A stretch of DNA of 64,000 nt from Pectobacterium sp. CFBP8739. Lineage in GTDB: Bacteria > Pseudomonadota > Gammaproteobacteria > Enterobacterales > Enterobacteriaceae. The notes below the pieces were generated by a model. That model did no database searches and was not told where the DNA came from. It was given only the letters and a program-made list of their open reading frames with translations. Location: contig NZ_JACDRR010000006.1 of NCBI RefSeq assembly GCF_013449375.1, positions 1-64,000 of the forward strand, given 5' to 3'. Positions 1-9,111 of the stretch are shown here, piece by piece. A program made the translations under genes and the position numbers. Each line of letters starts with the position of its first letter. The first letter of the stretch is position 1.

Positions 1-3000
1 CGCCCTGTGCCACGCTTTGTGCCGTCAGCGTACCACTGACCACCGGTGCATCATTCACGGAAGTCACCATCAGCGAAGCCTGTGCGCTATTAGCGGAGAA
101 GGCGCTGCTGCCGCCAGTCGTTGATGTATCCGCCAATACTTTGGTTGCACCGCTGGTTGCCATACCGCTGGTCTGATCCCAGGCTCTGAAACTGAAGGTG
201 GCGGTTTCGCCGTTGGCGCGGTCCGGAGCATAGCGAATCTGCGTCGTTGCACTGAGCAGCAACGCTGACGAGCTGGATACCGTGCCGACGCTAAACCAGT
301 TAGTCCCACTGTCCGTGGAGTATTGCCACGTGCCGTTGCCAGTCAGTGCTGTTAGTGCAATACCGCTCACCGCACCGCTGTCCACATCCGCATAACCGGC
401 AGAACTCAATAACGATGACACCGCCGTGGATGACGAGGTAACGTCTTCCGTTGTGGAAGTCAGGGTGACCGTGGCACCGCTGGACAAGGTTGGCGCATCG
501 TTGACCGGCGTAATGGAAAGCACCGCCTGATTAGTGCCAGCACTATTTAACGAACCGTCGTTAAACGTCCAGCTCAGGGTGACACTGCTCGGCGGGCTGT
601 CGGAACTGTTGGTATAGGTGATGGACTGCAAGACAGTATCGACGATGGCCGAGGTGGCGTTACTGTTGAACGTCAGCACCAGCGTACCGCTCGAATTGGT
701 GGTGACGCTGCCCACCGTCGTACCGTTGTAGGTGAAGTTTTGCCCTTGCGTTAGTGTTCCCAGTAGCCCGCTATTACCAAAAACATCGTTACTGCTGGCC
801 CCACCGTTGCGGGCGATGGTTATCGACGCGCCGTTATAGTTACCAAGCCCGCTGTTCAACGCATCCAGCTCGGTATCCGCAACAGTAACATCGCTGTCTA
901 TCACCACCGTGCTGCCGTTTTCGGTGTAGGTGGCTCCGCCGTTCAGGTTGCTGAATACCGGTGCGGTGTTGGAGGTTGAGGTGAGCGACGAACTGTTGAC
1001 CGCCGTCAGGCTACCTGAGGTGGCGCGCAACGCCAGCGTATTGGTACTGCCGCTGTTGGTGTACTGGATGATAAGACCGGTGTAGGTGGCAATGCCGCCG
1101 GACGGCGTTAGCGTCACCGTGGTACTGCTGGCGTCCTGATCACCGGAGGTGACCGACAGGCTGTTGACGGTGCCATCAACCGTCCCATCATTAGGATCAG
1201 TGACCGACAATACGATATTGGTGGTGTAATCCTGATCCACCATGCCGTTGGCATCGACCGCCTGCACTACCGGTACCGTGCTAAAACCGGTACTTTGCCC
1301 ATCCTGAATAGTGACAGGCACCGGCTGGGTGGAAAACACCAGTTGCGTCGCCACCACATCTGGATTGATCGATGCCGATGTAGCGCTGACCAGGCTGCCG
1401 GACGCTGCCGTCAGCACGAAATTAGCGTCACTGTCACTGGCCGAGGTGTACTTCACGCCGCTAAAGGTGGCAGTACCGTTCGAGGCGGTCACCGAGGTGG
1501 TGCCGGTCAACGAGCCACTGCCATTTTCGCTCAGGGTAACGGTGCCGCTGAAATCGGTATCGATATTGCCACTATCGTCAACGGCAATCAGCACTGGCTG
1601 GGTGGTGAAGTTAATGCCACTGACCACGGAGGTGGACGGCGATTGGCTATAAATCAGTTTGGTTGCAGCCACATCAATGCTGGCACCGCTGCCGTTGGTG
1701 ACATTGGACTGCCCGCTAGTAAAGGTGGAACTACCCGACCCGGTGGTCACATTACTGGCATTGATGGACAGTATCACCGTGTGGCCATCGGTAATGTCGT
1801 TACTGCTGGTGTTATCGCTGTAATACGCCTTAATGGTGTAGGTTTCATTGCCGCCGTCAGCAATCGATAAGCTCAGCCCGGAAAAGGTAACTCTGCCCGT
1901 ACTGCTGTCGTATGTACCAACGACGTTGGTGGCATCCGGGCCACTAAGCAGGAAGGTCATCTTACTCAATTCTGATGATGTCGCCGTACCACTGACGTTC
2001 GCGTATAACGCGCTGACGGTAGTGGCAACGCCATCCGATGCTCCCGTATCCGTGATGGTAAAATCCAGCAATGAGGTGGCGCTGGCGGCCGAGGTTGCTG
2101 TGGTGGCAAACGTCGTCACTTCGCTGGCGGCACCAGCCGTTACCGTTGAGGTGGTGTCTGTTGACGTGATGGCTCGGACATCATTGATCACCAGATCCTG
2201 CATTCCGAACGAAGGAATCGATGAACCATTGTTGGTTTTAATCGTCACAGAAATGACATCGTTAATCGCTGTTTGACCATTACTGAATGAGAAACTTGAA
2301 ATGGTCTGCTCACCATCTTGTGTAGCAAGAAATGATGCTGTAGCCGTCGAATTATCTGCATACGTCACGGTTATCGTAACGGTAGGCGCAATTTCGCCCC
2401 CCTGCGAATCAGCATAATATTTGAACGAATTAATATCGAATGTATAGCCTGTCGCAGAGATCGTAATCTTCGTCTGATTATTGGCGCTATCAGAGCTATA
2501 AAGGTAGTCAGTACCAGAAAATGTCGCGTTACCAAAGTTATCGACAGAAGTAAAGGTGATCGTCGCACCGCTCACCTGGCGCGTGAATACAGGCGATGTA
2601 TAACCAAATTCACTTTCATGACCTGTATCACCAAAGGTCAGCGTATCCAGCAAATAATCATAATTGCTGAACGACAAACCATGGCTATCGATGATGCCAT
2701 CTTTGTTAACAGCCTCTAGCGTCCAGTTACCGCCAAGCGTTGATGCTCCAGTCGCATCCGTCGACGCGGCCACATCGGCACCCGTTAAGTCGGCTACTTC
2801 AGTAAGAAACGCCGCGCCCGTATTGCTTGCCACATCACACCCGTACAGCAACAGATCCCCGTCTTCCGTCAGTGCCGAGCCCAATACAGCCAAATCAGCA
2901 GCTCGTGACGCCGCCGTCGTCGCGTTTAACGTCAACGTTCCCAGCGAAACCTGCCCTTCACTGCCATGGCTAATGATATGGATCGCATCATAGCCGCTGT

Positions 3001-3454
3001 GTGTTTGCGCCCATTCCACCATCTGTGTCAGGCCGTCTTTACTGCTGTCCAGCAAGACCACTTCTGTTCCGGCAGGCACCTGATTGACCAACGTTTGGTA
3101 ATCAGCAACGGACGTGTCAACAAACACCACTTCTTTATGGGTAGTTTCGCCAGCTACCGCCACAACCTCGCTGCTATCAGAGGTTGTGCTCTGTGTACTG
3201 GTCCCTGAGGTCGATGAATCAGTGTTGTTAGTCGTACCATCGGCATGGCTACCATCAGTCTGAGTGGCCGTCTCAGCCGAGGCTGTTTGCGTGGTAGTGG
3301 CTTGAGTCTCTGCGGTTTGATCGACCGTGGCGGCAACTGCCCCATCAAACAACATACGGGCTTCCAGTGCATACCCCAACGGTATATCGGGAACCGATGC
3401 AACCGGGCTGGCCGGATGGTTGCCTTTCTTACGGAACAGATGACGCCATAACAT
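1..3454 (-). CDS. Giant DUF4347 / Ig-cadherin-like repeat surface protein (C-terminal part outside window)
   Basis: The frame is open from an ATG at 3454 to the left edge (about 1151 codons seen), so the C-terminus is missing. Near the N-terminus is the motif LEARMLFDGA (about residues 31-40), which resembles the LEPR-XLL motif of very large exported proteins. No classical signal peptide is seen. Residues of about 109-240 form a DUF4347-type domain with IISHG (His163) and LLYGC (Cys206). The rest is low-charge, Ser/Thr/Asn/Gly-rich and repetitive: Ig-like units with FSGTVTLS and GTATFSG patterns around residues 620-740, then cadherin-like units carrying VNDAP (about residues 985 and 1130). 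These features fit a cell-surface or secreted adhesin. The adaptor genes upstream on the same strand are the likely exporters (inference). It could also be a biofilm matrix protein; function is not demonstrated. Confidence 0.85.
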   Translation of the reverse strand, partial: MLWRHLFRKKGNHPASPVASVPDIPLGYALEARMLFDGAVAATVDQTAETQATTTQTASAETATQTDGSHADGTTNNTDSSTSGTSTQSTTSDSSEVVAVAGETTHKEVVFVDTSVADYQTLVNQVPAGTEVVLLDSSKDGLTQMVEWAQTHSGYDAIHIISHGSEGQVSLGTLTLNATTAASRAADLAVLGSALTEDGDLLLYGCDVASNTGAAFLTEVADLTGADVAASTDATGASTLGGNWTLEAVNKDGIIDSHGLSFSNYDYLLDTLTFGDTGHESEFGYTSPVFTRQVSGATITFTSVDNFGNATFSGTDYLYSSDSANNQTKITISATGYTFDINSFKYYADSQGGEIAPTVTITVTYADNSTATASFLATQDGEQTISSFSFSNGQTAINDVISVTIKTNNGSSIPSFGMQDLVINDVRAITSTDTTSTVTAGAASEVTTFATTATSAASATSLLDFTITDTGASDGVATTVSALYANVSGTATSSELSKMTFLLSGPDATNVVGTYDSSTGRVTFSGLSLSIADGGNETYTIKAYYSDNTSSNDITDGHTVILSINASNVTTGSGSSTFTSGQSNVTNGSGASIDVAATKLIYSQSPSTSVVSGINFTTQPVLIAVDDSGNIDTDFSGTVTLSENGSGSLTGTTSVTASNGTATFSGVKYTSASDSDANFVLTAASGSLVSATSASINPDVVATQLVFSTQPVPVTIQDGQSTGFSTVPVVQAVDANGMVDQDYTTNIVLSVTDPNDGTVDGTVNSLSVTSGDQDASSTTVTLTPSGGIATYTGLIIQYTNSGSTNTLALRATSGSLTAVNSSSLTSTSNTAPVFSNLNGGATYTENGSTVVIDSDVTVADTELDALNSGLGNYNGASITIARNGGASSNDVFGNSGLLGTLTQGQNFTYNGTTVGSVTTNSSGTLVLTFNSNATSAIVDTVLQSITYTNSSDSPPSSVTLSWTFNDGSLNSAGTNQAVLSITPVNDAPTLSSGATVTLTSTTEDVTSSSTAVSSLLSSAGYADVDSGAVSGIALTALTGNGTWQYSTDSGTNWFSVGTVSSSSALLLSATTQIRYAPDRANGETATFSFRAWDQTSGMATSGATKVLADTSTTGGSSAFSANSAQASLMVTSVNDAPVVSGTLTAQSVAQG

Positions 3455-3695
3455 AGAAGTCCCCCGAAAACCCAAATTGCTGTCAACAATGATACCAGTC
3501 AGTAGCCGAACCGTTTGAAAATAAAAAAATAATCGCTTTTATGAGTAAGTATTTCAAATTACAAGAAAGATTAAATTTATGTCCTTACTTTGTAAATTGA
3601 CAGTTATTTTTACATTATGTGCTGTTTTGTGATATCGGCACGTTTTTGCCTGCCTGAAAAGGGAGGCAAACCGCCCCCCTTCATTGAGCATCGCC

Positions 3696-4619
3696 TCAAG
3701 GATGGGGCGGAAAATACCCTTTGACAGCAATACAGGCGGTCATCACTAACGACGGGTCGCGCACCGGTACCGATACATTTACCGGCACCGTTACCGGCGC
3801 AGGCGTCGTCACATTCGCGCCTACCGTGACCACCCCCGTTACCGGCAGACTGATAGTGCCCGACGCCGTTCCTGACAACTGACCACCGGTCGCGGTACCA
3901 CTTACCGTGCCGCTCGCCGTACCGGTGACGCTACCGTCCGGCCCCACCTGCCGGTCGTTAGTGCCGGATGGCGCGTAGATCTGGGCGGAAGGCCCACCGA
4001 CGGAGGTCAACAACGCTTTATCCGTGAGACTCACGCTTCTGCTGGTGGTGGTGGACGAACCGATTTTGGCGATACCGGTGACACCCAGGCTGGCTACCGC
4101 ACTGAAAGGCAGATTGGTGATACTGCCAGACAGCGATGTCAGGGAAACGGCGCCGCTTGCCACTGGCGTCGTACCCGAGACGCCGTTCAGCGTTAAGGTT
4201 GCGGGGTGAGTATGCGGCGGAACCTGTGAGGCGGTGAGCGTCACCGAGCCAGTGCCGACAACGTTTGAGACTTCCTGCCCAATCTTCTGACCCGGAATAG
4301 GGTTATACGTCGGGGAAGAACCATTAAGCGGGCCCGCGCCTATCGCCGTTCTCCCCCGCAAATCAGGCAACATAAAGTTGGTGGACGCATTACCCCCATA
4401 AAGGGTGCCAAGCACCGCATAAAGCACCTGATAATCGGATATATTCAGTGTTCTGCCATCTGCGGGCAAATAATCATCTGCCGGGCAATAAGTACCGGCC
4501 ATATAACAAACGCTGCCAATATATGGGCTGTCAGCAGAACACCCCGCCATCGCTTGCGGTAGAAATACGCCGCCACTCAATACGACGGCAATCGCGGATT
4601 TGACAAACACACGCTTCAT
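3696..4619 (-). CDS. Secreted phage tail-collar (MdpB-like) domain protein
   Basis: The 307-aa product starts at ATG 4619 behind a strong AAGGAGAG ribosome site; an in-frame ATG ten codons upstream lacks one. Residues 1-25 form a clear signal peptide (KRVFVKSAIAVVLSGGVFL, then QAMAG). A tail-collar domain follows: ADGRTLNISDYQVLYAVLGT, then GGNASTNFMLPDLRGRTAIG, as in microcystin-dependent-protein-like families. The C-terminal half is Gly/Thr/Ser/Val-rich with short repeats of the GTASGTVSGTATGG type. Three cysteines lie just after the signal cleavage region. The gene sits between the M50/HlyD operon and the giant repeat protein, all on one strand, which suggests a shared extracytoplasmic role. 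That link is inferred; the exact function is unknown. Confidence 0.8.
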   Translation of the reverse strand: MKRVFVKSAIAVVLSGGVFLPQAMAGCSADSPYIGSVCYMAGTYCPADDYLPADGRTLNISDYQVLYAVLGTLYGGNASTNFMLPDLRGRTAIGAGPLNGSSPTYNPIPGQKIGQEVSNVVGTGSVTLTASQVPPHTHPATLTLNGVSGTTPVASGAVSLTSLSGSITNLPFSAVASLGVTGIAKIGSSTTTSRSVSLTDKALLTSVGGPSAQIYAPSGTNDRQVGPDGSVTGTASGTVSGTATGGQLSGTASGTISLPVTGVVTVGANVTTPAPVTVPVNVSVPVRDPSLVMTACIAVKGYFPPHP

Positions 4620-4837
4620 ATTTCTCTCCTTAGACCGATACTGCTTCACCGCGAGATGAAGAGCATCGGATTATTGTCATCATGCTGTGTGACCCCAGAG
4701 GATGGGGCATATCAGGCTGTCATGAGATAAAAACGAGGTAGAGTGGAAACATATTGAAACATAGTAAAAACATAGTTCAGCGAGAGAAACTTGCGTACTT
4801 ATTAAAAAATATTTTTTGATATTACCGAGAGGAACAG

Positions 4838-5029
4838 ATGAGTAAAATTTATTCAGCACCTGCATTTACTCATGTCGATGAGTTCCCCGTCAAAACCCGC
4901 TTTCCCGAATGCCCAGCGCTGCTACCCGACGCCATGTCGCGCCGAGGATGGACTCTTTCTCTCCTTCAAGAATCACGCTGCCTCGTAGCGGCTGTTGTGG
5001 CGGCAAAAAATGTGCATCTTGCACCGTGA
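4838..5029 (+). CDS. Possible small ORF, leader-peptide-like N-terminus (63 aa, speculative)
   Basis: An ATG at 4838 follows GAGAGGAACAG, a good ribosome site. The first 17 codons lie in the intergenic gap; the rest runs antisense to the 3' end of the M50/HlyD gene. The N-terminus (MSKIYSAPAFTHVDEF) has a Y-x-x-P-x-F-x-x-x-D pattern that recalls the YxxPxL recognition motif of lasso-peptide leaders, which bind PqqD-like domains. A PqqD-like domain is encoded next door. No lasso cyclase or asparagine-synthetase-like gene is visible. The antisense overlap makes chance a real possibility. Confidence 0.25.
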   Translation: MSKIYSAPAFTHVDEFPVKTRFPECPALLPDAMSRRGWTLSLLQESRCLVAAVVAAKNVHLAP

Positions 5030-6998
5030 ACCGGACACTGTACTGCGCCTGTACCGGTTGAGGGTTATGGTCCTTGTCTCGGCGCACGGCGATGGGGCCG
5101 TGGCGGTCGGATGCCAACATCTCTTGTTGTAACCAGGCTACGCCTGTCGGTGCGATGTCTTTCAATTGCACCGACAGACGGGGATAAGCTGGGTCATCCG
5201 CAATGAAATCACCGGTCATGCCCACCCGTGCGCGCTTCAGCGTGTCTTCGGGCAGATATCCCTGTACTTTCCCACGCCCTTGTTCGACAACGCGTAACAA
5301 CGGTATGTCGGTAGCCAGCCAGCGGCCTGCGGTCATATCCCGTGCCACATCTTTGACGCTTCCCGCTTGTGGTGCTGTGATCGACAACCGCTGACGCTGC
5401 GCAGCGAGTCCACGATAACGCGCCAGTGATTCGGCCAACTGCCTGTCAAGTACCTGAGTCTCACTGGCGGTTTCCTGACGTCCGGCACTTCGCTGCCGCT
5501 GTTGCTGCAAAAGCGCAATCTGTTGACGCTCAATATTGATACGGTAATCCAGATCGGATGAAGTCAATTCCAGCAACACTTCACCCGTTTTCACCGGCTG
5601 ACCGTCTATGACATGTAAGGCTTTTACCTGGGCGGCAATAGGCGCGTAAAGCACACTGACGTTTTCAGCCTCCAATACCGCTGGAATACGAACGCTGCCG
5701 CGCCAGGGGAACAGCAGAAACAACAGTACAGCCGCTAAAATCAGCCCAGAACGCCACAGGCTGACAGGATGAGCAGTTTTACGCATGGACCACCAGATAT
5801 GTGCTTCCTTAACGATGGGAAGCGCGATAAACCAACCAATTTCCACCAGCATCAGGGCGATACCGACCACCTTGATAAAAAAGTGATACACCACTAAGGC
5901 GATGCCGAAAAACAGGAAGAAGCGCCAGACCCACGAGGCGTATCCCCAAATCAATAGTTTGCGTTGCATGGCCGGCGACCAGGTACTGGGGGGCGGATGG
6001 CCGTAACCAAACAACGCCTCACGTAGCCGCCAGCGGCACAGAGCATAGGCTCGCTCTTGCAAGTTTTCTACCCGCCAAAAATCGCTCAGCAGAAAGTACC
6101 CATCAAAACGCATCAGGGGATTAAGGTTGATCGCCAACGTCGTTATCCAGGTTACGCTAGAAAGCATAAACGCGGCGGTACGTATCGAGCCATCAGGCAG
6201 TAGCGACCACGCCAGCAGAGCGACGCAGGCCAGCATCAACTCCGCCAGAATACCACCTGCGCTTATCAGTAACCGGGCGCGGTGATCCCGGAGCTTCCAA
6301 GCATCACTGACATCGGTATAGAACAGCGGGAACAGCACAATAAAAGCCACTCCCATGGTTTGTACCCGGCAACCGGCGCGTTTGGCCATAAAGGCGTGCC
6401 CCAGTTCGTGGATGAACTTAGCGCCCACCAACGCCAGCCCGAAGGCAGCCATCCCTTGCAGACTAAACAGGTGAGGAAATGCATGGATATACCGTACCCA
6501 GTCTCGGCTGACTAAAAATCCGCCCAGCAGCAGCATGAGCGGCAACACAATCCGCACAAACGGCTGACCGTAACGTTGCAGCCAGGGCCAGCAACGACTT
6601 AGTAGCGGGTCTGGACGCCATAATGGAATACGGAAAAAAAGATATTGATGCAGCAGCGTTTTCCACACACTGCTGCGCAGAGCCTCAGCTTTGATGGCAT
6701 AGCTTTGCCGTTGCAGCGGATCGCTGGAAGCGATCAAATCGTGATTACGCAGAAACCGCAACAGTTGATCCAGCTCTTTTTCCTGCAAGGGTAAGCCGGG
6801 CTCGCGGTTGGCTGCGTTCAACACCCATTCAGGATCGCGCAGCGACCAGTGGCGTAACAGGCGGATCGCTGACGGTGCCAGTTTGAAGTAGCGCCCAGTG
6901 ACTGAGTCGGTCAGCACCCACTGTGGTGTGCCGTCAAGGCCGGTGGCGGACTCCACCAGTTGCAGATCGGTTCTCAGTGCGGGCAAAAAACCACTCAT
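4890..6998 (-). CDS. PqqD-like / M50 site-2-protease-like / HlyD fusion membrane protein
   Basis: The 702-aa protein has three recognisable parts. Residues of about 15-90 form a PqqD-like winged-helix region (YFKLAPSAIRLLRHW, LLRFLRNHDLI). Residues of about 140-430 are multi-spanning membrane sequence with the zinc motif HELGH at 197-201 and NPLMRFDGYF with Asp299, the arrangement of M50 (site-2) metalloproteases. Residues of about 440-640 form a HlyD/biotinyl-lipoyl-like periplasmic domain with coiled-coil, typical of secretion adaptors (IAAQVKALHVIDGQPVKTGE, LSITAPQAGSVKDV). It overlaps the upstream adaptor gene by 4 bp, so translation is probably coupled. Active-site residues look intact. 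It probably processes or guides a substrate at the inner membrane, perhaps the giant repeat protein (inference). No ABC ATPase is visible nearby. Confidence 0.85.
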   Translation of the reverse strand: MSGFLPALRTDLQLVESATGLDGTPQWVLTDSVTGRYFKLAPSAIRLLRHWSLRDPEWVLNAANREPGLPLQEKELDQLLRFLRNHDLIASSDPLQRQSYAIKAEALRSSVWKTLLHQYLFFRIPLWRPDPLLSRCWPWLQRYGQPFVRIVLPLMLLLGGFLVSRDWVRYIHAFPHLFSLQGMAAFGLALVGAKFIHELGHAFMAKRAGCRVQTMGVAFIVLFPLFYTDVSDAWKLRDHRARLLISAGGILAELMLACVALLAWSLLPDGSIRTAAFMLSSVTWITTLAINLNPLMRFDGYFLLSDFWRVENLQERAYALCRWRLREALFGYGHPPPSTWSPAMQRKLLIWGYASWVWRFFLFFGIALVVYHFFIKVVGIALMLVEIGWFIALPIVKEAHIWWSMRKTAHPVSLWRSGLILAAVLLFLLFPWRGSVRIPAVLEAENVSVLYAPIAAQVKALHVIDGQPVKTGEVLLELTSSDLDYRINIERQQIALLQQQRQRSAGRQETASETQVLDRQLAESLARYRGLAAQRQRLSITAPQAGSVKDVARDMTAGRWLATDIPLLRVVEQGRGKVQGYLPEDTLKRARVGMTGDFIADDPAYPRLSVQLKDIAPTGVAWLQQEMLASDRHGPIAVRRDKDHNPQPVQAQYSVRFTVQDAHFLPPQQPLRGSVILEGEKESILGATWRRVAALGIRESGF

Positions 6999-8314
6999 AA
7001 TCCGACCGACTGACGCAACACGGCGAGCGGTCGCCGGAACAGGTATACCGCCAGCGGCACATACTCACCGAAAACTTTAGCGGTTCCGCGTAGCCCGATG
7101 CGCGGCGGCTCGGCGGTAAAACGCGCATCCAACCGGTAGGCCAGATTCCCCGCAGGGGTCTGTTCTGATTCATAAGCGACGCGATCCAGCAATGCACTGT
7201 GCGGCGTAACTGGATCACTATCGAGAAACAGAGTGATCGGCGCATCCGGCGCCAGCCGAATGGCATCACCGACATCCAGTTCGATGCGTAGCGATACCGA
7301 TGCCGGATCGGCTAATTCCATCAACCGTTCCCCGGTGCGAACCGGCTTACCGGCCCAACGTTCGGCATCGGCAAACACCGCGATGCCGTCGCGTTCGGCT
7401 CGGATTTCAGCGCGTTCCAGCAAGGCATTGGCGTAGTCTCGTTCAGCACGCTTTTGCGCCACCTGCGCGGCCAGAAAGTCCAACTTCGCCTTGGAATCGG
7501 CATCCTGAAAAGCCCGCTGTGAATTGGCTCGGTATTCGGCTTCCGCCACATTCAACGCCCGTTCCGCCACATCCGCCTGTGCTTTCAGGGTGGTATCGTC
7601 AAAACGCACCAGCAGGTCACCTTTGCGTACACTCTGGTTCGGTTGAATAGCAAACGACTGAATCACGCCATCAAGTGGTGCGGCCACCACGCGTCCGTTG
7701 AGCGGAATCACCTCTGCCGGTGCCAGCACTGACTGACGCACTGGGATGAACAGGCTCGCGACGATCAATAGACAGGGGATCGCCAGTTTCCAGCGCCAGC
7801 GAGTACGCCGCCATACCGGTTGCGGCTCCAGCGCCAGCCAGGCATGACTAAATGCATGAGCCAGTTGTTCCGCTAGCACATGCTCGGCACCCTGCCAGGG
7901 TTGCTCGCGGGCATACCAGATACCGCCAAATATATGCCCCTGACGATCTCTCAGCGGCGCCCACAACGCTTCAGGAGCCGACAACGTCTGCCAGTCATTG
8001 CGACTTTGTTGATCCAATGAGGCTGAGACCACCACCGCACACTGCTCGTGCTGCTGAGCCTTCTGCAACTGTGCGACGGCTCGCTCGATAAACGCGACAA
8101 AAGGCGCATGCGGCGAAGGCTGGGTGACGCCAGTCACCGCCCGTACCGTGCCGTTGATCACCAGTGCGGCATGGCGAAACCCAAACAGCGTCTGGCTGTC
8201 GTTGACGATGCAATAAGCCAGCGCTTCAGTCGTGTTCGCCGAGCGCGCCTGACGTTCGATGTCCAAAAAGCGAGCGAAAATACGTTCGCCGGAAACGGGG
8301 GACGTATTACTCAC
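6995..8314 (-). CDS. GAF-like / HlyD-family membrane fusion protein
   Basis: The 439-aa protein begins with a soluble region (residues of about 10-160) that looks like a GAF domain: ERQARSANTTEALAYCIVND, an Ala/Val-rich core, and LWAPLRDRQGHIFGGIWYAR. One transmembrane helix follows (about 173-190, WKLAIPCLLIVASLFIPV), then a HlyD/RND-type adaptor domain with lipoyl-like halves (VVAAPLDGVIQSF, VRKGDLLVRFDD) and a coiled-coil hairpin. The N-terminus would be cytoplasmic and the adaptor part periplasmic. It overlaps both neighbours by 4 bp (ATGA), so the three adaptor genes form one operon. The GAF assignment is by overall pattern and is less certain than the HlyD part. Confidence 0.8.
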   Translation of the reverse strand: MSNTSPVSGERIFARFLDIERQARSANTTEALAYCIVNDSQTLFGFRHAALVINGTVRAVTGVTQPSPHAPFVAFIERAVAQLQKAQQHEQCAVVVSASLDQQSRNDWQTLSAPEALWAPLRDRQGHIFGGIWYAREQPWQGAEHVLAEQLAHAFSHAWLALEPQPVWRRTRWRWKLAIPCLLIVASLFIPVRQSVLAPAEVIPLNGRVVAAPLDGVIQSFAIQPNQSVRKGDLLVRFDDTTLKAQADVAERALNVAEAEYRANSQRAFQDADSKAKLDFLAAQVAQKRAERDYANALLERAEIRAERDGIAVFADAERWAGKPVRTGERLMELADPASVSLRIELDVGDAIRLAPDAPITLFLDSDPVTPHSALLDRVAYESEQTPAGNLAYRLDARFTAEPPRIGLRGTAKVFGEYVPLAVYLFRRPLAVLRQSVGL

Positions 8315-9111
8315 AGTTTCTCCGAAAAATGCGCTGTGCCACTCATTCCAGCCATCAACGTCGTGTTTTTGGTTTCAATGACACCGCTGAGGCTGAGAGT
8401 CTGACTGCTTTCATCAATACGCGCCCCCAGTCTGGATACGCGGGCCTGCAACGGCGTACCGGTTTCATCGGGGGTAAACGTAAAGGCTAACCCTGGTTTC
8501 AACATCGACAGCCAGCGGGATGGCACCAGCAGATTAATCTCCAGATGGTGATTATTGACGATATCCAACAGCGGTGCGCCTGGCGCGATACTTTCATACG
8601 CTTGGGCGCGTCGTTTAACGACCTGACCGTCGAACGGCGCCAAAATACGGCAGCGATTTACCTGAATCTGGTAAACTTGGCTTTCCGCCTGCGATTGCGC
8701 CAGATGCGCGGCGGACAAGGATACCGCATGCTTTCCCACCGACTTTAGTTGCGCCAACTGCTGATTCTGGCTGAGTTCCGCTTCCGCTGCCCGCATCGCC
8801 GCCTGCGATGCTGCCAACTGTGCCTGATAGATAGCACAATCAAAACGTGCTAGCAGGTCGCCTTTTTTGAACGATTCCCCTTCTCTGAACGGCATTTCTA
8901 CAATACGCCCGGCCAAATCGCTGGAGATTGTCGCCTGATCTACAGCGACCAACAGTCCACGAGCCTGATAGGCTGCTGACGCGGTTGTCGTGGGTGATGC
9001 CGGATTAGTCAATAACGGGTCATCAGCCTGTGCCTGCGCGAGAGAAAGAGAAACGCAACATGTCATCAGTCCCAGAGCCAAACCCAAAATAGAGCGATTG
9101 ACGTTGTTCAC
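8311..9111 (-). CDS. Periplasmic HlyD/RND-type adaptor subunit
   Basis: The 266-aa product starts at a GTG (9111). The nearby ATG is out of frame and closes at once. Residues 1-29 form a signal peptide (ILGLALGLMTCCVSLSLAQAQA). The rest is a compact adaptor: a lipoyl-like half (ISSDLAGRIVEMPFREGESF), an Ala/Gln-rich coiled-coil hairpin (about 90-145), a second lipoyl half (CRILAPFDGQVVKRR) and a beta-barrel. It is the first gene of the adaptor operon and overlaps the next by 4 bp. With a signal peptide but no membrane anchor, it should be periplasmic or, given Cys18-Cys19, possibly lipid-anchored; the Cys context is not a clear lipobox. Confidence 0.8.
   Translation of the reverse strand: MNNVNRSILGLALGLMTCCVSLSLAQAQADDPLLTNPASPTTTASAAYQARGLLVAVDQATISSDLAGRIVEMPFREGESFKKGDLLARFDCAIYQAQLAASQAAMRAAEAELSQNQQLAQLKSVGKHAVSLSAAHLAQSQAESQVYQIQVNRCRILAPFDGQVVKRRAQAYESIAPGAPLLDIVNNHHLEINLLVPSRWLSMLKPGLAFTFTPDETGTPLQARVSRLGARIDESSQTLSLSGVIETKNTTLMAGMSGTAHFSEKL

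Follow-up and report, generated by a model that had tools for sequence, protein, structure and literature searches.

A fusion of RRE, M50 protease and HlyD domains in Pectobacterium as the candidate core of an export and maturation module for giant proteins

Introduction

In lasso peptide biosynthesis a RiPP recognition element (RRE; RiPP, ribosomally synthesised and post-translationally modified peptide) guides a protease to the N-terminal leader, and M50 proteases are known for the epipeptides and pearlins (PMC10885120, in part). The present analysis concerns a protein of 702 amino acids (aa), encoded on the minus strand at 4890..6998 of a 64,000-nucleotide stretch from Pectobacterium sp. 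CFBP8739 (contig NZ_JACDRR010000006.1, positions 1 to 64,000; the whole stretch is called the window), in which a PqqD-like RRE, an M50 membrane protease and an HlyD-type adaptor are joined in a single chain. It is proposed, with a probability of about 0.6, that this fusion protein forms, at the inner membrane, the core of a module dedicated to exporting and maturing giant proteins. Each of the domains is already known, as are the fusion of an RRE to a peptidase in lasso peptides and the export of giants via HlyD and TolC; new relative to the literature searched are the three-part fusion, the gene block free of an ATP-binding cassette (ABC) transporter and the link to leaders of the LEPR type.

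The lasso B1/B2 pair has the same RRE fold as the window's protein, and the nearest folds in the PDB are leader-bound structures of TbiB1 and lasso B1. Unlike the lasso pair, which consists of an RRE with a cysteine protease and yields a short peptide, the protein described here has a membrane M50 protease fused to an adaptor and has a giant as its partner. The daptide metalloprotease (NF041824) and the YydH/LiaK/EpeP epipeptide proteases are closer in that they are M50 membrane proteases, and the NF041824 model matches residues 25-390 with an E-value of 4e-42; however, the score of 144.7 bits falls short of the curated cut-off of 300, the 379-position model has no HlyD part, and the substrates of these proteases are small peptides.

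The likeness to type 1 secretion (HlyB-HlyD-TolC, and the LapBCE-type export of giant adhesins) lies in the HlyD adaptors, the TolC-type partner and the repetitive giant substrate. The signal for which type 1 substrates are known is C-terminal, whereas the candidate here is an N-terminal leader, and none of the ORFs inside the block was recognised as an ABC transporter. The LEPR-XLL proteins (NF012209, LEPR-8K) have a similar N-terminal motif, and three of four DUF4347 or partner giants tested (L120, L124 and L125) exceed the 17-bit cut-off of NF012209, with the fourth (L163) at 13.3, whereas the window's own giant stays without a match at E<=0.01. Neither an RRE-M50-HlyD fusion nor an export machine for LEPR-XLL proteins is described in the open PubMed Central titles and abstract beginnings that were found, a coverage that leaves subscription papers and preprints mostly outside, and the terms 'M50' and 'HlyD' are absent from the main texts of PMC12710340 and PMC7470986.

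The fusion protein

The source assembly amounts to 4.36 Mb in 64 contigs, and the window is the start of one of these (C56 in the analysis). The 702-aa open reading frame (ORF) is intact and begins with ATG, and the plus-strand frame at the same place is full of stops. Its nearest named relative, from Dickeya undicola, is 94% identical over the best segment, and across the 79 loci fetched (obtained from the best 80 of 235 matching stretches) the identity of the best segment ranges from 37 to 94%, with Pectobacterium, Kosakonia, Pseudomonas, Azospirillum, Methylobacter and Bordetella among the sources. Since relatives occur in 79 loci and the catalytic residues are invariant in the 44 members that were aligned, which is the alignment behind all conservation figures given here for the fusion protein, the ORF is not a chance one. 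A plasmid search returned 18 records, none of which matches 80% of the query in one place, and the Kosakonia plasmid match among them is annotated merely as adaptor subunits. The full-length AlphaFold2 (AF2) model has a mean predicted local distance difference test (pLDDT) score of 86 and a predicted template modelling score (pTM) of 0.67, and a viral fold search of BFVD with this model gave nothing at E<=0.001.

An earlier note on this DNA had proposed the triple join and had named the PqqD-like assignment of the N-terminus as its weakest part, to be checked by structure prediction and comparison with PqqD. Residues 1-108 were folded alone because, when the full chain was compared with the PDB by fold, every match listed was to the HlyD part. 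The resulting AF2 model, built from 44 sequences, has a mean pLDDT of 83 and places three strands (residues 12-17, 26-31 and 36-40) before three helices (42-49, 56-64 and 73-85). An RRE consists of three strands followed by three helices (PMC12710340, section 6), and the model of residues 1-108 shows this order. The domain itself is assigned to residues 1-91 (6726..6998, minus strand).

In a Foldseek search of the PDB the best chain is 5v1u_B, TbiB1 with its leader peptide bound (E 1.3e-3, probability 1.00), and the target-normalised template modelling scores for 5v1u_B and 5v1u_A are 0.67-0.73. TbiB1 and lasso B1 account for the six top-ranked chains, after which come 5why and 5wgg and, in ninth place, TglHI, itself a bearer of an RRE. 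The RRE structures listed in PMC12710340 include 6JX3, 5V1V, 5SXY and 5WGG. With VIA-align the top ranks are lasso B1 (Z 10.0, 82 residues aligned, 2.6 A), TbiB1 (Z 9.8, 80 aligned, 2.9 A) and PqqD itself (5sxy; Z 8.5, 85 aligned, 2.4 A).

At the level of sequence the picture is mixed, with hhalign pairing the 44-sequence profile with a 12-sequence profile of PqqD (PF05402) at a probability of 94.6 and an E-value of 7e-8; when the comparison was rerun in a script the score was 36, against 11 for the reversed profile and a maximum of 21 in 200 column shuffles. The fusion protein has no match to Pfam PqqD in a six-frame search of the source genome, and a distant relative with the same full-length architecture (G009, 265.9 bits with the A1 profile) scores 25.5 bits with that model against a Pfam cut-off of 23.4. 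The PqqD-like assignment is well supported by the fold, to which the profile-profile comparison and a distant relative over the Pfam cut-off add. In the well-studied cases the RRE fold is a binder of leader peptides.

The M50 domain, of the site-2-protease type, spans residues 111-404 with approximate borders (5787..6668, minus strand), as judged from Pfam, the AF2 helices and NF041824. Pfam Peptidase_M50 matches residues 186-269 with 33.1 bits (cut-off 27.2), and around the HExxH motif MJ0392 and RseP are matched weakly at the profile level. The zinc-binding and catalytic motif HELGH occupies residues 197-201 (6396..6410, minus strand) and lies within the model helix 180-207, which places HExxH in a predicted transmembrane helix. 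In M50 proteases the third ligand is an Asp in an NPxxxxDG-type motif, and the corresponding NPLMRFDG is found at residues 293-300 (6099..6122, minus strand), with Asp299 as the likely third zinc ligand. None of His197, Glu198, Gly200, His201 and Asp299 varies among the 44 members, and the second motif reads NPLMRFDGY in 36 and SPLMRFDGY in eight. The HELGH motif and the conserved Asp299 were both part of the earlier proposal and have held. The protease looks active, since HExGH and (N/S)PLMRFDGY are kept in every member of the alignment.

The adaptor part, of the HlyD/MacA type and assigned to the periplasm, covers residues 433-702 (4893..5702, minus strand). Pfam HlyD_3 matches with 37.8 bits (cut-off 22.2), all 44 members match HlyD models at E<=1, and VIA aligns 220 residues to MacA with Z 16.7 (4.5 A). 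With M50 and HlyD_3 above their cut-offs and the PqqD-like part recognised by fold and profile, the join of three domains in one 702-aa protein is borne out. The C-terminal tail RESGF (residues 698-702; 4893..4907, minus strand) is nearly fixed, with Arg698 and Glu699 the same in every one of the 44 members. Helices of the full-length model lie at 130-165, 180-207, 239-266, 271-291, 342-373, 376-404 and 411-429, and seven such spans would leave the RRE inside the cell and the HlyD domain in the periplasm; hydropathy by itself fails to resolve all seven.

A different RRE-M50 fusion of 690 aa occurs at L096:511-2583 (minus strand, genome G004). It has repeats that by eye resemble cyclic-nucleotide-binding ones, scores above the Pfam cut-off for PqqD, contains an M50 domain and ends without an HlyD part.

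The giant partner and its leader

The block in the window reads, in gene order, short HlyD protein, second HlyD protein, RRE-M50-HlyD, collar protein and giant. The giant is present as its N-terminal 1,158 aa (2..3475, minus strand) and runs off the contig end, with a DUF4347 domain at 2708..3130 and, close to its start, the motif LEARMLFD at 3344..3367 (both minus strand), which is the candidate ligand of the RRE. The motif belongs to a pattern, LExRxxFD(G/A), that is akin to the NCBI 'LEPR-XLL' and is common to partner giants of different kinds.

Gene labels in the loci were assigned by the best phmmer hit, and the fetched DNA stops short of some giants and TolC genes. The leader motif is found in 45 of the 47 labelled partner giants whose N-terminus is included, the window's among them; the two without it are those of L052, with its broken genes, and L061, with its fragmented giant. 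Among 587 other ORFs of 300 aa or more it occurs in three (L017, L034 and L066), all partner-type giants missed by the labelling. These counts come from running a widened motif on all locus ORFs, the first pattern having been too narrow (it missed the variants LERR, LEKR and LEPRLLFA) and having been widened after the data were seen. In the 49 motif-bearing giants (48 in the loci and the C14 giant described below) L, E, R, F and D are invariant, and no Sec-type hydrophobic stretch lies upstream of the motif in any of the 48 (stretches of 12 residues, hydropathy mark 1.9).

The source genome encodes two giants, each adjoining its own RRE-M50-HlyD gene. The two share their start and differ in their bodies: the window's carries the variant LEARMLFDGA and the other, on contig C14 (C14:138428-146449), has LEPRMMFDAA. 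The only DUF4347 match in this genome is that of the window's giant, the C14 giant giving none, and a search of the genome with NF012209 returned nothing at E<=0.001. Elsewhere, the LEPR-XLL matches of genomes G053 and G107 lie in open frames of 13,848, 12,249 and 10,327 aa.

Co-occurrence across genomes

Samples of 185 genomes of the class and 398 of the phylum were compared, with a threshold of E<=1e-20 for the RRE-M50 gene in the class and with relatedness uncorrected. In the class the gene is present in 25 genomes and DUF4347 in 20, with 16 having both, nine the first only and four the second only (Fisher 1.7e-13, or 1.0e-12 without the source genome); these 25 genomes span 24 families. 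In the phylum sample, which is dominated by a few families, the gene occurs in 91 genomes and DUF4347 in 95, together in 75 and singly in 16 and 20, respectively (Fisher 7e-46). NF012209 is matched in 12 of the 185 class genomes, 11 of which have the RRE-M50 gene (Fisher 3e-10).

The leader follows the gene as well, which offers a natural control, as judged from totals counted by eye from the N-termini of the DUF4347 proteins. In the class a leader-bearing DUF4347 protein is present in 15 of the 16 genomes with the gene against none of the four without (Fisher 0.001); among these four, G034, G128 and G165 have signal-peptide-like starts and the match in G068 is below the cut-off. For the phylum one locus was read from each of the best-scoring 28 of the 75 genomes with both, and 26 of the 28 have the leader by the widened motif. 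It was seen in one of 20 genomes without the gene, the exception being G364, which is 57% complete; the 20 consist of 19 covered by 30 of 37 places (two having no N-terminus in the DNA) together with G165 from the class reading. Sec-like starts are found among them in G165, G384, G493, G535 and G541, and many of the others have short N-termini with neither signal. On DUF4347 proteins the leader is nearly confined to genomes that have the RRE-M50-HlyD gene.

The association with tagged giants of the surface type suggests a widespread and little-studied export route for very large proteins. The proposal would supply a machine for the known but unexplained LEPR-XLL tag on very large bacterial proteins, which in the present sample include frames of more than 10,000 aa, and RRE domains, known for small modified peptides, would extend to the export of giants. 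The module is frequent, being present in 91 of the 398 phylum genomes sampled, and would therefore concern numerous plant-associated and environmental bacteria.

Proposed mechanism and competing explanations

In the proposed mechanism the cytoplasmic RRE would bind the LEPR-type N-terminal leader (LExR-x-x-F-D-G/A) of the partner giant. Trimming of the leader would probably fall to the M50 protease at the membrane, perhaps within the Ala/Val-rich residues that directly follow the motif. Transport to the outside would be the task of the periplasmic HlyD domain together with the other two HlyD adaptors of the block and a TolC-type channel. That the RRE reads the leader is likely, because RRE folds bind leader peptides and the leader is the feature common to otherwise different partner giants. 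Cleavage by the M50 domain is plausible, given its conserved residues and the M50 proteases of the epipeptides and pearlins, and any cut site is a guess. The route through HlyD and TolC is suggested by the architecture. The earlier suggestion of capture, cleavage and handover of a substrate would fit the anatomy of the protein, and the adjacent giant with its LEPR-type leader is the candidate substrate. A bolder version is held more tentatively, at somewhat less than even odds: that this is a separate class of Gram-negative export, in which LEPR-leader giants without a Sec signal are recruited by the RRE, cross the inner membrane where an M50 protein stands in for the ABC transporter, shed the leader there and leave via the HlyD adaptors and TolC.

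Several observations count against the proposal of a dedicated module. At the RRE, nothing in the Foldseek search of the PDB with residues 1-108 reaches E<=0.001, and none of the 44 members matches Pfam PqqD at E<=1. The NCBIfam LEPR-XLL model finds no match at E<=0.01 in the giants of the window, L021 and L011, and G076 has a LEPR-XLL protein and no M50 match. With the narrower motif used at first, the phylum figure for the leader falls to 15 of 28 loci, and G304 and G320 are without the leader at the loci read. No leader protein was found in six of the 25 class genomes with the gene (G008, G038, G060, G100, G112 and G153), of which two are at most 75% complete and one, G008, has a large neighbour with a Sec-like start by eye; the DUF4347 protein of G077 is likewise without the leader despite the gene, with a LEPR-XLL match elsewhere in that genome. 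TolC is not seen beside the window's genes, where the contig ends; in L007-L009 it comes after the giant. Finally, a block with no energised transporter would leave the passage across the inner membrane unexplained.

This last point is also what lends weight to the idea that the giant is exported by another machine, such as an ABC exporter encoded elsewhere, with the fusion protein only trimming the leader or acting as a regulator and its HlyD domain docking the protease at the TolC conduit. A search of the 79 loci with a six-seed profile (E<=1e-5; the rest of the genomes not searched) placed no ABC transporter inside the block in any of them, and two loci have an ABC exporter on the opposite strand at a distance of 2.1 kb, the one in L077 bearing a C39 peptidase domain. 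However, the block encodes three HlyD-type adaptors, 45 of the 79 loci have a labelled TolC-type gene, and the ABC-like ORFs, nine in all, occur in just seven loci, always outside the block and at the nearest 2.1 kb away, and a separate exporter is considered rather unlikely. That no ABC transporter was found in the block can also be read as pointing to an M50 domain that is structural only, serving as an inner-membrane channel or a holder of the leader without proteolysis, and EpeP, itself of the M50 family, is thought to carry out both cleavage and export of an epipeptide, according to a review (PMC10885120, in part). The invariance of HExGH and (N/S)PLMRFDG in all 44 members argues instead for kept catalysis, and a purely structural role is judged improbable.

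It is to a similar degree improbable that the RRE and the M50 domain mature a small peptide in a RiPP-like system, with the giant a mere neighbour. RRE domains and M50 proteases do serve RiPP maturation (PMC10885120, in part), the best analogues being the daptide and epipeptide M50 proteases, and the daptide model matches much of the protein, as described above. Its score is nevertheless less than half of the cut-off, the conserved partner is a leader-bearing giant, and from genome to genome the leader goes together with the M50 gene. The proposal of a dedicated module for the giant is preferred over all three explanations.

The gene block and its surroundings

The first gene of the block encodes the third, short HlyD-family adaptor (8311..9111, minus strand), labelled in 77 of the 79 loci, and the next encodes the second adaptor (6995..8314, minus strand), which has a soluble N-terminal domain ahead of its HlyD part and is labelled in all 79. 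The short and second HlyD genes overlap by 4 bp, as do the second HlyD and RRE-M50-HlyD genes. Five of the second-HlyD proteins were scanned for a GAF domain, with three distant ones over the cut-off, one weak match and none in the window's protein. Between the protease gene and the giant lies the gene for a phage-tail-collar-domain protein (3696..4649, minus strand), whose N-terminus looks by eye like a signal peptide; a collar protein is labelled in 42 of the 79 loci and occurs in two to three copies in L018, L029, L040 and L046. The presence of a large ORF nearby (75 of 79 loci) was dropped as evidence, unrelated large genes having been counted too.

The ABC exporters 2.1 kb from the RRE-M50-HlyD gene are at L077:15109-17211 and L078:15110-17212 (minus strand), the former with its peptidase domain of the C39 type. 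A neighbouring ABC exporter as the server of the system was considered and set aside as unsupported in most loci.

In L052, from Candidatus Symbiopectobacterium sp. 'North America', the short HlyD, M50, collar and giant genes are all in pieces, which suggests decay of the system in this symbiont.

The source genome also holds a complete paralogous operon at C14:132268-146449 (L004, L005 and L135), with a 2,673-aa giant, a TolC-like protein of 606 aa, a pair of HlyD proteins and an RRE-M50-HlyD protein of 709 aa and 40% identity. Directly after it, at C14:130215-131945, lies the gene for a 576-aa protein, which is conserved in this position after C14-type operons in seven Pectobacterium loci (L056-L058, L060, L061, L064 and L065).

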